Below are positions 23,095 to 29,331 of a stretch of 64,000 bases of DNA, piece after piece. The notes below the pieces were generated by a model. It saw nothing but the letters and a program-made list of their open reading frames with translations, had not been told where the DNA came from and made no database searches. The translations under genes were made by a program, and so were the position numbers. The stretch is from Cognatishimia activa (GTDB lineage Bacteria; Pseudomonadota; Alphaproteobacteria; Rhodobacterales; Rhodobacteraceae): assembly GCF_017798205.1 (NCBI RefSeq), contig NZ_CP060010.1:744001-808000 (forward strand), written 5' to 3'. Positions within the stretch are counted from its first letter, which is position 1; each line of letters begins with the position of its first letter.

Positions 23095-23106
23095 GTTAGC
23101 GCTAGA
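23095..23106 (-). promoter_or_regulatory. AGCGCT-centred palindrome in the sdhC promoter
   Basis: GTTAGCGCTAGA, with perfect core TAGCGCTA (23097-23104), 83-90 bases before the sdhC ATG. A central C-G step flanked by A/T fits LacI-family operators. In Rhodobacter sphaeroides the LacI-family regulator CceR is known to activate TCA genes; assignment to a CceR homologue is inference. Confidence 0.5.
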
Positions 23107-23148
23107 GTTTGGTTAAAAAATCAAAATTAGGCGCGAAATCCGTCATTT

Positions 23149-23179
23149 TGTGATCACGCATATTTTAAATGCGATCACA
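23149..23179 (-). promoter_or_regulatory. Twin TGTGATCACA-type palindromes, sdhC promoter
   Basis: TGTGATCACG (23149-23158) and TGCGATCACA (23170-23179), each one mismatch from TGTGATCACA. Their centres are exactly 21 bp apart, two helical turns. An AT-rich spacer separates them. The same pair with the same spacing stands upstream of sucC. The dyad size suits a GntR-family regulator; AkgR, a GntR-family activator of TCA genes in R. sphaeroides, is a candidate. Confidence 0.65.
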
Positions 23180-23279
23180 AATCGCCCGCGCTCTCAATTC
23201 CCGACACAAATACTACAGGAGACCAACGCCAACTCATATATTTTAAACAGTATTTATACGCATCCAATTTAGCGAATTA

Positions 23280-23289
23280 TGTGATCACA
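23280..23289 (-). promoter_or_regulatory. Third TGTGATCACA palindrome, distal to sdhC
   Basis: Perfect 10-bp palindrome, 110 bp upstream (centre to centre) of the nearer member of the twin pair and just past the stop of the VWA-protein gene. It may be an auxiliary site for looping or cooperative binding at sdhC. Confidence 0.55.
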
Positions 23290-23299
23290 AAACAAGGAG

Positions 23300-23965
23300 C
23301 TACCGTGCGGCGAATTGTTTTGTAAGCTCGCGGATCAGTTTCTCGCGGATTCGGTCGGGGTATTCGTCAAAACTATTGGCGGACACAACGAAAGACTCCT
23401 GTCCCGTGATGACATTGGACCTATAGTACTCAAGGATACCTTCGTTGCGCGTGTCGATCACCAAGCCATTCACCGTGATCCCTGCACGCGCCATCAAAGG
23501 TTTCACGTCCTGCGGCACCACGCCCTCGTTTGACTCTCCATCGCCGGACACATCGATGACCAGCCGCTCGCAGTCAGGCGCGGTTTGCATCGTCTCCAAA
23601 CCAAGCAAAAGCGCTTCGCCAATGGCCGTGGAGTAGTTCCGCCAAAGGCGTGGGGTCTCGTCGACCATGCGTGCAAAACTCTCGACATCCTCAAAATCAC
23701 GGATCGCGAACCATGGCAGAGAGATTTCCTGCCGTGAGCTGCCGCTCCATTGCATGAGGGCAACGTTGGCCTGCCCGACCACAAGAGCCTCGGACACCAA
23801 ACCATCGCGCAAGGCCGCACTGAGGCCGCCCATCTGTATCCGGTATTCACTTGGGTCGACGCTGCCTGAAACGTCCACCGCCAAAAGCAACGCCACATCA
23901 CAGGCCTTCGCCTGAGACGTGAAACCAATAAGGCAGGTGATGAAAGTCGCCAAAGCTCGCCGCAT
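23300..23965 (-). CDS. DUF1194 VWA-like secreted protein
   Basis: Exported protein of 221 aa with signal peptide MRRALATFITCLIGFTSQAKA. The DUF1194 domain has a von Willebrand A fold; DVSGSVDPSEY (about residues 31-41) supplies the D-x-S-x-S metal-binding (MIDAS) motif, and DVSGDGESNEG gives a later conserved aspartate. Function unknown; VWA domains usually bind a protein partner through a metal ion. It lies 53 bases after mch in the same direction and could be read through from that operon. Confidence 0.85.
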   Translation of the reverse strand: MRRALATFITCLIGFTSQAKACDVALLLAVDVSGSVDPSEYRIQMGGLSAALRDGLVSEALVVGQANVALMQWSGSSRQEISLPWFAIRDFEDVESFARMVDETPRLWRNYSTAIGEALLLGLETMQTAPDCERLVIDVSGDGESNEGVVPQDVKPLMARAGITVNGLVIDTRNEGILEYYRSNVITGQESFVVSANSFDEYPDRIREKLIRELTKQFAAR

Positions 23966-24018
23966 AATCAGAGCCTAGCGGGCATCCGAACTTTGCGGCG
24001 AAAACTTTTCGTGATCCA

Positions 24019-25050
24019 TTAGATCGGCATCAAGGCCCAATAGTCGAGATCTAGAAGCACGTCGGGAAGATACTTGCCGTCTTCGCCCTTCAACTCAAAC
24101 GGTGCACCGCCTTTGGTCGCCACAAGACGCAGACGGATCGCCCCAACGCCAGGGGCCGAGGTTTCGGCCTTATCCAGAACTTCAGACCAAGCGCGGACAG
24201 TCATGCCAGACAGGCAAGGGTTCGCGTGTACCCCGCCGTTAAGACCCACGATCATCTGCGCGTTGGCCAGACCGTTGAAGGACAGCGCCCGCGCCATGGA
24301 AATCACGTGACCGCCATAGATCAGACGCGTGCCATCAGGCCGTGCAGTGCTGTCAAAATGCACTTTGGCGGTGTTCTGCCACAGGCGCGTGGCCATCATG
24401 TGTTCGGCTTCTTCAATGGTGACGCCGTCCACGTGGTCGATGGTCTCGCCGACCTCATAATCGCCCCAGCGATGCGCCTCGCCCGCCAGCGTGAAATCGT
24501 AGCCTGTGAAATCAAGCCCTTCTGGTATGACCAAATCCTTGGGGTCGATGACTTTGGACAGCTCGGGGATTACGGTTTCAGGCGCAGGCGCATCCAGATC
24601 CTTTTTGCGCACCATGACCCAGCGGACGTATTCCATGACCACTTCGTCGCGCTGATTGAGACCGCGCGTGCGGACATAGACCACACCGGACTTGCCATTG
24701 GAGTTCTGTTTGACCCCGATCACCTCAGAGGTCGACCGCAGGGTGTCGCCTTCATAGACCGGTTTCAACCAGCGGCCCTCGGCGTAACCAAGGTTTGCGA
24801 CCGCGTTCAGCGACACATCCGGCACAGTCTTGCCAAAAACCACATGGAACGCAGCCAGATCATCAATCGGTGACGCCGGAAGACCAGACGCCCGCGCAAA
24901 TTCGTCCGAAGAATAAAGCGCATGCCGCGCAGGATACAAGGCGTGATACATGGCACGCTCGCCTCCAGACACAGTGCGCGGCACGGCGTGATGGATGACA
25001 TCCCCGACTTTGTAGTCTTCGAAAAAGCGTCCGGCGTTGGTCTTGGCCAT
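24019..25050 (-). CDS. mch: Mesaconyl-CoA hydratase (beta-methylmalyl-CoA dehydratase)
   Basis: EMC-pathway enzyme hydrating mesaconyl-C1-CoA to (2R,3S)-beta-methylmalyl-CoA. The 343-aa protein has two MaoC-like hot-dog domains (about 5-150 and 190-330). GRFFEDYKVGD opens the first and HRWGDYEVGETIDH the second; TAKVHFDSTARPDGTRLIYG matches the Mch family. The start ATG shares one base with the stop of the DUF1737 gene. Linkage with mcl2, ccr and ecm makes this assignment firm. Confidence 0.95.
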   Translation of the reverse strand: MAKTNAGRFFEDYKVGDVIHHAVPRTVSGGERAMYHALYPARHALYSSDEFARASGLPASPIDDLAAFHVVFGKTVPDVSLNAVANLGYAEGRWLKPVYEGDTLRSTSEVIGVKQNSNGKSGVVYVRTRGLNQRDEVVMEYVRWVMVRKKDLDAPAPETVIPELSKVIDPKDLVIPEGLDFTGYDFTLAGEAHRWGDYEVGETIDHVDGVTIEEAEHMMATRLWQNTAKVHFDSTARPDGTRLIYGGHVISMARALSFNGLANAQMIVGLNGGVHANPCLSGMTVRAWSEVLDKAETSAPGVGAIRLRLVATKGGAPFELKGEDGKYLPDVLLDLDYWALMPI

Positions 25051-28121: not shown

Positions 28122-29084
28122 ATGGCTCGACCCAAGATTGCCCTCATCGGCGCAGGTCAGATCGGCGGCACACTTGCCCACCTCGCAGCACTCAAAGAAC
28201 TTGGCGACGTTGTTCTGTTCGACATCGCTGAAGGCACCCCAGAGGGCAAAGCTCTCGACATCGCGGAATCTGGCCCATCTGAGGGGTTTGACGCGAAGCT
28301 GAAAGGCACCCAAGACTACGCGGACATCGCTGGCGCAGATGTCTGCATCGTGACCGCGGGTGTACCACGTAAGCCAGGCATGTCCCGTGACGACCTTCTG
28401 GGCATCAACCTGAAAGTCATGAAGTCCGTGGGCGAAGGCATCCGCGACAACGCACCTGAGGCGTTCGTGATCTGCATCACCAACCCGCTGGACGCGATGG
28501 TTTGGGCACTGCGTGAGTTCTCTGGCTTGCCACACGAGAAAGTCTGCGGCATGGCAGGCGTTCTGGACTCCGCACGCTTCCGCCACTTCCTGGCCGAAGA
28601 GTTCGACGTATCCATGAAAGACGTCACCGCCTTCGTTCTTGGCGGCCACGGCGACACCATGGTGCCATCTTCCCGTTACTCCACCGTTGCAGGCATCCCT
28701 CTGCCGGATCTGGTGGAAATGGGCTGGACCACTCAGGAAAAACTGGACGCGATCATTCAGCGTACCCGTGACGGCGGCGCGGAAATCGTTGGCCTGCTGA
28801 AAACCGGCTCAGCGTTCTACGCACCAGCGACCTCTGCGATCGAAATGGCTGAAGCCTACCTCAAAGACCAAAAGCGCGTTCTGCCTTGTGCAGCTTACGT
28901 TGACGGTGCTCTGGGTCTGGACGGTATGTATGTGGGCGTTCCAACCGTAATCGGTGCCGGCGGCATCGAGCGAATCGTCAACATCAAGCTGAACGCCGAA
29001 GAACAAGAGATGTTCGACACCTCTGTGAACGCGGTGAAGGGCCTGGTTGAGGCTTGCAAAGGCATCGACAGCTCGCTGGCATAA
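28122..29084 (+). CDS. mdh: Malate dehydrogenase
   Basis: NAD-dependent oxidation of malate to oxaloacetate in the TCA cycle, 320 aa, of the LDH-like MDH type usual in alphaproteobacteria. LIGAGQIGG (residues 8-16) is the NAD site, [16 protein letters not shown] carries the substrate-binding arginines, and GGHGDTMVP the catalytic His. The ATG at 28122 has GGAGA before it; the longer open frame upstream is not MDH. A strong terminator follows 22 bases after the stop, so it is separated from sucCD. Confidence 0.97.
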
Positions 29085-29106
29085 GCCACCTCAAGAGTTT
29101 CAGAAG

Positions 29107-29132
29107 GGCCCGCTTTTGGCGGGCCTTTTTTA
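29107..29132 (+). terminator. Terminator of mdh
   Basis: GGCCCGC (29107-29113) and GCGGGCC (29119-29125) flank a short loop, followed by six T (TTTTTT at 29126-29131). Classical intrinsic terminator 22 bases after the mdh stop. Confidence 0.88.
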
Positions 29133-29172
29133 TTGCTTCATGAATGTTTGCGCAAACTTCTTTCAGGCGCGA

Positions 29173-29197
29173 CGAGTCGGATTTCACATGCGACTCG
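29173..29197. promoter_or_regulatory. Inverted repeat upstream of the twin sites at sucC
   Basis: CGAGTCG (29173-29179) and CGACTCG (29191-29197), 7 bp perfect, centres 18 bp apart. It lies 27 bases before the first TGTGATCACA palindrome. No T-run follows, so an operator is as likely as RNA structure. Confidence 0.35.
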
Positions 29198-29224
29198 ATT
29201 TCAGAAAAGAACATTTCTTTAATT

Positions 29225-29255
29225 TGTGATCACAGTATTTTTTCGTGTGATCACA
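29225..29255 (+). promoter_or_regulatory. Twin TGTGATCACA palindromes, sucC promoter
   Basis: Two perfect 10-bp copies, at 29225-29234 and 29246-29255, centres 21 bp apart. This exactly repeats the spacing at sdhC. The proximal centre is 113 bases before the sucC ATG. Same candidate GntR-type activator as at sdhC. Confidence 0.7.
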
Positions 29256-29295
29256 AATGTCGGAATTTTCCGTAGAAATACGGCAAACGGACAAA

Positions 29296-29331
29296 AAGCG
29301 CTTAGTTTTATGGAATCTGTGCGTCTATAAC
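29296..29331 (+). promoter_or_regulatory. AGCGCT palindrome and candidate -10 of sucC
   Basis: AAGCGCTT (29296-29303) lies 49 bp (centre to centre) downstream of the proximal TGTGATCACA. A good -10, TATAAC, is at 29326-29331, but the -35 position (TAGTTT) is very poor. A weak -35 with a palindrome just upstream suggests activator-dependent transcription. Confidence 0.5.

Follow-up and report, generated by a model that had tools for sequence, protein, structure and literature searches.

Passages of two papers on AkgR (RSP_0981), a GntR-family regulator of Rhodobacter sphaeroides, connect this protein with the tricarboxylic acid (TCA) cycle: GTGATCAC is given among the AkgR binding sites (PMC6365646), and RSP_0981 is predicted to control the sdh, sucCD and 2-oxoglutarate dehydrogenase genes (PMC4344238). 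Here we describe a 64,000-nucleotide stretch of Cognatishimia activa (hereafter the window; C1:744001-808000 of a one-contig genome of 3,252,335 bases, G000), in which the TCA cycle genes sdhC and sucC are each preceded by a pair of sites related to TGTGATCACA, together with the counterparts of these sites in other Rhodobacteraceae. A GntR-family regulator, GTGATCAC sites and sdh and suc targets are shared with the R. sphaeroides AkgR regulon as presented in passages of these papers (PMC4344238, PMC6365646), whereas the spacing of the twin sites, a whole-turn register, a ladder of A/T tracts and a fixed, putatively autoregulatory site are described here from sequence. The CceR/GapR (RSP_1663) regulon of Rhodobacteraceae likewise shares central-carbon targets with the genes considered here, and a LacI-type palindrome with a central CG lies at sdhC.

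Two further kinds of promoter are relevant for comparison. UP elements are phased A/T tracts that are bound by the C-terminal domains of the RNA polymerase alpha subunits (alpha-CTDs) and are centred at -42 and -52, and at promoters DNA is wrapped from about -60 to -80, as stated in a passage of PMC4496709. Phased A/T tracts upstream of the -35 element, as in the UP elements of sigma-70 promoters, are also found in the promoters described here, but the ladder that they form extends past -80 and terminates at the candidate activator sites. At tandem class I CRP promoters, activator dimers stand upstream of the -35 element in whole-turn steps; here the protein would belong to another family, and the two sites are a fixed 20-21 bp apart. 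New here are A/T tracts that recur about every 10 bp in both promoters, changes in the pair-to-promoter distance of sdhC that mostly amount to whole helix turns, and a single site at the regulator gene that usually lies 18 bp from TTGAC; we read the phased twin sites as serving activation and the single site as serving autorepression. A literature search on phased tracts together with the alpha subunit gave no paper, and those retrieved for the TGTGATCACA motif were, judged by title, not on this subject; the layout may nevertheless have been published. The arrangement provides a precise, testable rule for TCA-cycle expression across a large bacterial family, in which operator pair, register and regulator go together, and a natural series of promoters differing by whole helix turns that could serve to study how a GntR-type activator contacts RNA polymerase from afar.

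Twin sites precede sdhC and sucC across the Rhodobacteraceae

The sdhC gene (succinate dehydrogenase cytochrome b556 subunit; 22628-23014, minus strand; NCBIfam TIGR02970 above cut-off) is preceded by a proximal site, TGTGATCACG, at 23149-23158 and a distal site, TGCGATCACA, at 23170-23179, and sucC (succinate-CoA ligase beta subunit; 29364-30557, plus strand; NCBIfam NF001913 above cut-off) by a distal site at 29225-29234 and a proximal site at 29246-29255. An earlier note on this DNA had placed these four sites and a third perfect copy in the window at 23280-23289, had given both pairs a centre spacing of 21 bp, and had pointed to an AGCGCT palindrome nearer to each gene; re-reading of the sequence confirmed all five sites, the spacing, and the palindromes at 23098-23103 (53 bp centre to centre from the nearer sdhC site) and 29297-29302 (49 bp from the nearer sucC site). 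Genome-wide, TGTGATCACA has four perfect copies, three in the window and one at C1:907844-907853, and at least 131 matches with up to one mismatch. The window holds six matches with up to one mismatch against 1.72 expected, a number reached in one of 100 shuffles. Scanning the genome for GTGATCAC-N13-GTGATCAC gave one exact match, at sucC, and three with one mismatch, sdhC among them. GTGATCACNAA occurs at 24 places in the genome, six of which read GTGATCACAAA: one sdhC site, the third site, both sucC sites, the site at the regulator gene described below, and a site within an open reading frame (ORF) of 412 amino acids (L105).

To the 80 named loci obtained by a scan with SdhC, mostly titled Rhodobacteraceae (Ruegeria, Celeribacter, Shimia, Tateyamaria, Cognatishimia and others), the window was added as the 81st; eight loci gave no sucC. 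With pairs accepted at up to two mismatches per 10-mer and a spacing of 20 or 21 bp, a pair is present at sdhC in 80/81 loci and at sucC in all 73 loci having sucC in reach, and at the proximal sucC site GTGATCACA is identical in 73/73. When the spacing was left free, every exact pair within 45 bp was still spaced by 20 or 21 bp (19 and 59 pairs, respectively, at sdhC; 3 and 70 at sucC). In the 400 bp ahead of sdhC and sucC, GTGATCAC has a density of 5.49 per kb, versus 0.052 per kb in the remainder of the same loci. One of the loci, L053, is titled Nocardioides marinus, an actinobacterium; its sdhC locus is 66% identical to that of the window, and the genome is possibly mislabelled.

A second set sampled the family with a single genome for each genus (198 genomes); 176 of these contain an exact pair whose gap is 2-32. 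Among the 75 pairs listed, from 37 family genomes, 62 are spaced by 21 bp, six by 20 bp and seven otherwise. Outside the family, 18 of 285 genomes of the class have any such pair; their 19 pairs show spacings of 12-39, two of them being at 21 bp. Conservation in related genomes, set beforehand in the earlier note as a test, was thus found, and the expectation that pairs would be confined to TCA genes holds for the classified 20/21-bp pairs, which with one exception are at sdhC, sucC or fumC; in the exception, L176, the sole match was to mdh, which precedes sucC. The genome count, the conservation within the family and the rarity outside it led us to reject a chance origin of the sites. The fumC case comes from one family genome (L232, G082:C16), in which a 21-bp pair near 451-479 stands ahead of fumC, encoding a class II fumarate hydratase; this gene may be a third TCA target in that genome.

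The pair occurs together with the gene of a GntR-family regulator

Of the four perfect copies of TGTGATCACA in the genome, the one outside the window is found 8 bp upstream of the start codon of a gene encoding a GntR/FCD regulator of 216 amino acids (G000:C1:907188-907835, minus strand) with domains PF00392 and PF07729, both above cut-off. The gene is about 99 kb outside the window and about 134 kb from sucC, beside accA, which is found in the 1.5-kb flank of the regulator in 18/38 loci. Like the published AkgR regulon, this genome has a GntR-family regulator gene and GTGATCAC sites, the putative operators, at sdh and suc, and the regulator is a putative orthologue of RSP_0981 itself. In a set of 38 regulator loci (the window genome and 37 relatives), a site within one mismatch is present near the start of the putative orthologue in 36. 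For the 31 regulator promoters that have a TTGAC close upstream of the site, the distance between TTGAC and GTGATCAC equals 18 in 26 and is 5, 10, 17, 19 or 20 in the others. At this fixed distance of 18 bp from TTGAC the site would therefore fill the spacer and the -10 region, a geometry that fits autorepression. The regulator promoter of L193 and L237 (G227:C1:3357949-3357969) has two GTGATCAC sites 13 bp apart in place of one.

The orthologue was detected in 38 of 40 genomes searched. Among the 198 family genomes, 173 have both pair and regulator, three the pair only, four the regulator only and 18 neither (Fisher 6e-19, uncorrected for kinship); in G073, counted as having both, the orthologue has an E value of 1.8e-56. 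Of the four with the regulator only, G080 does have a pair at sucC, at one mismatch; no sucC match was obtained in G162 or G195, and that in G187 is partial and only 52% identical. None of the 17 regulator-less genomes with a sucC-like match (only 50% identical in G061) has a pair at up to one mismatch per site, and in the 300 bp upstream of sucC 14 of these have no site within one mismatch and three a single one-mismatch site. These single GTGATCAC-like sites (L283, L284 and L288), two of which stand at -138, the position of the distal site elsewhere, are probable relics. Comparison of coordinates in six genomes (G050, G082, G091, G164, G194 and G237) placed the orthologue about 5-11 kb from the nearest pair; locus tags RSP_0962-0981, as they appear in a passage of PMC4344238, are similarly close in R. 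sphaeroides.

Helical register and A/T tracts between the pair and the promoter

In 113 non-redundant sdhC promoters, GTGAC[AT] was observed 101 times versus 4.0 expected, at an offset from the proximal core of 64-68 in 90, 56 in one, 77-78 in three, 86-88 in six and 23 in one (L182), which has another GTGAC[AT] at 77. In the window, GTGACT at 23065-23070 is the likely sdhC -35 element and TAGAAC at 23043-23048 the likely -10 element (both minus strand), and the distance from pair to promoter is two turns longer than in most relatives. Offsets from seven hand-grouped clades fit a period of 10.5 bp (V 0.91; V-test p 2e-5, nominal), and the pair-to-promoter distance at sdhC thus changes mostly by whole helix turns. 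The suggestion of the earlier note that dimers sit on the same face of the helix is consistent with these whole-turn changes and with the spacing of 20/21 bp. At sucC, a consensus promoter scan of 29180-29380 gave no match; by eye, TTAGTT at 29302-29307 and TATAAC at 29326-29331 (plus strand) are tentative -35 and -10 elements.

The stretch between pair and -35 element is marked by regularly recurring A/T trinucleotides. Counted from the proximal core, these peak at 9-10, 18-19, 28-29, 38-39 and 49-50 at sdhC and at 9-10, 18-19, 29-30, 38-39, 47-50 and 56-57 at sucC, with near-empty troughs. When 99 sdhC promoters were anchored at the -35 element, peaks fell at about -48, -38, -27 and -17, which relative to the inferred start of transcription corresponds to about -82, -72, -62 and -51. 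The peak R of tract phasing is 0.53 at sdhC and 0.59 at sucC, versus shuffle maxima of 0.145 and 0.13, and, with each genus represented once, 0.51 (n=35) and 0.59 (n=37), versus 0.22 and 0.21. The corresponding stretches of the window run from the sdhC pair to the palindrome (23104-23148, minus strand) and from the sucC pair to the -35 element (29256-29298, plus strand), with phasing taken from the family set and not from this copy alone. The pair, with its A/T ladder, is kept in most sampled Rhodobacteraceae genera, and genomes that lack the regulator gene mostly lack it as well.

A model of AkgR action and its alternatives

The explanation that we favour, and regard as probable taken as a whole, is that copies of TGTGATCACA are operators of the putative AkgR orthologue, which would activate from twin sites, in register with the A/T tracts, and repress its own gene. 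Two AkgR dimers would sit on one face of the helix, two turns apart, upstream of the -35 element, with predicted centres at about -118/-139 at sdhC in the window species, -97/-118 in most relatives, and about -88/-109 at sucC. The tracts, recurring about every 10 bp, may bend the DNA, offer minor-groove sites for alpha-CTDs, or both, and would therefore hold dimers and RNA polymerase in a fixed rotational register. At akgR, the single site, in most cases beginning 18 bp downstream of the first base of the TTGAC -35 element, would cover the spacer and the -10 element and so block the gene's own promoter. The sdhC palindrome may provide further input through a CceR-like protein of the LacI family. 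Of the joint action of AkgR and CceR proposed in the earlier note, the AkgR part finds good support because the observed site pattern, in which the single perfect copy outside the window lies at a GntR/FCD regulator promoter and pair and regulator occur together, agrees with what passages of the cited papers state on R. sphaeroides AkgR. In a bolder form of this explanation, which we put forward tentatively and think somewhat likelier to fail than to hold, both TCA promoters would be one rigid, helically indexed machine made of twin dimers, about five A/T tracts at about 10 bp and the -35 element, wrapping the upstream DNA; the activator would work from about -90 to -140, promoter length would evolve nearly always in steps of whole turns, and loss of akgR would lead to decay of the ladder.

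Several observations weigh against AkgR action of this kind. At sdhC, L034 has no pair, GTGAC[AT] is missing in 13/113 promoters, the best promoter of L239 is out of phase (with L239 included the V-test p is 2.4e-4), L162 and L169, which have no clear -35/-10 elements, were excluded from the V-test, and L180 is a tie. The promoter elements of sucC are tentative, and the stretch above the pairs is also partly phased (peak R 0.29-0.43). At two regulator promoters (L138 and L144) no site was found at up to one mismatch, and five of the 36 that have one show no TTGAC in reach of it. Pairs are found without a detected orthologue in two metagenome-assembled genomes of the 40-genome search (G004 and G025) and in G059, G136 and G154. 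Finally, the line for calling an orthologue (E <= 1e-50) was drawn after the values had been seen, in the gap from 3e-46 to 2e-58, and p values are nominal because the genomes are related.

That a different GntR/FCD paralogue, and not the AkgR orthologue, uses the twin sites seems to us very improbable. Many genomes have additional GntR matches, with identities of about 30-40% for the best of them, and three genomes retain the pair without the orthologue. In a passage of PMC6365646, the same GTGATCAC palindrome is proposed to be used by a Pseudomonas regulator that shares 32% identity with AkgR. Nevertheless, it is the orthologue whose promoter has a site within one mismatch in nearly all loci and whose presence tracks the pair (173/3/4/18), whereas a weaker GntR match is still found in 16 of the 18 genomes having neither. 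FCD-type GntR proteins are mostly repressors, and the single site of the regulator gene is at a repressor-like position, so that dimers might instead hold the sdh and suc promoters off until released by a TCA-linked ligand. We consider such repression unlikely: the pairs are placed far upstream of the predicted -35 elements, mostly at whole-turn distances, and R. sphaeroides AkgR is termed a transcriptional activator in a passage of PMC6365646. A possibility to be taken more seriously, though not one that we expect to hold, is that the A/T ladder is a general, UP-element-like feature of strong promoters, independent of AkgR. Lag-10 ratios in the pair-to--35 stretch (2.3-3.6) overlap with those of controls (1.2-2.2, including 2.2 for the stretch above the sdhC pair and 2.0 for regulator-less sucC), and anchoring at the ATG did not distinguish regulator-less from regulator-bearing sucC (peak R 0.24 versus a mean of 0.28). 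In contrast, the lag-20 ratio is 2.7-3.5 in the pair-to--35 stretch versus 1.07-1.55 in four controls (above the pairs, mdh and regulator-less sucC), the regulator promoter shows no tract phasing beyond shuffles, though its tracts are few (87 in 31 promoters), and regulator-less sucC has fewer tracts (6.6 versus 12.5-14.3 per stretch), though it is also G+C-richer.

The remaining part of the joint reading, that both AGCGCT palindromes are CceR operators acting together with AkgR, stood only partly, and as a statement on both promoters we find it doubtful. AGCGCT lies between pair and ATG in 10/81 sdhC loci, at a similar place in several genera, whereas at sucC, where it abuts or overlaps the likely -35 element, it is found in 4/73 loci, with two at the place seen in the window (the window genome and its nearest relative). 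A passage of PMC4344238 gives the predicted R. sphaeroides CceR motif as [A/G/T]GTT N6-8 AAC[A/C/T]; by eye, the candidate CceR-type palindrome at sdhC (TTAGCGCTAG, 23096-23105) is a half match (GGTTAGCGCT), the sucC palindrome has neither half, and no match was seen upstream of mdh, a predicted TCA target. Sites resembling TTANCGNTAA (>=7/8) are enriched in the 75 bp after the pair (25/113 versus 2.2 expected at sdhC, 11/109 versus 2.0 at sucC), looser ones standing at varied places, but two of 13 decoy motifs tried are nearly as frequent (28 and 29 versus 38). The CceR-like sites fall on a grid of about 10.2 bp (Rayleigh z 14.9; 26 unique of 38 sites), as do decoy palindromes (AAANCGNTTT, z 12.5; TAANCGNTTA, z 7.0 at 10.25 bp); separate phasing of CceR-like sites is not claimed, since decoys and A/T tracts carry the same period. 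The genome scan for the palindrome that the earlier note proposed gave no enrichment: TTAGCGCTAA with one mismatch occurs at 47 places versus 145 for the backward-read pattern, that is, more rarely than the control. Among the 11 of the 47 places looked at, five precede fructokinase-like, malic-enzyme, gap, aceE and sdhC genes (the fructokinase-like, malic-enzyme and aceE identities being below NCBIfam cut-offs, with two of the three genes cut by the locus end), which partly match the CceR/GapR targets predicted in passages of PMC4052901 and PMC4344238; the others, by eye, lie at uvrB, at a DUF502-like gene and inside ORFs. The genome has nine LacI-type genes above cut-off. Because the pattern is rarer than its control, two decoys are nearly as common and the sucC palindrome is not conserved, CceR action is plausible at the sdhC palindrome and unlikely at that of sucC.

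Additional sites and the gene beside sdhC

An extra exact GTGATCAC lies upstream of the sdhC pair in 33/81 loci; in 16 of them, most from Ruegeria, its distance is exactly 57 bp (loci L013-L084). In the window, the third perfect site (23280-23289) lies 110 bp farther out than the sdhC pair, at about 265 bp upstream of where sdhC starts and 10 bp past the stop of an ORF of 221 amino acids (23300-23965, minus strand). This ORF gave no NCBIfam match; its product resembles, by eye, a protein of the DUF1194/vWA type.

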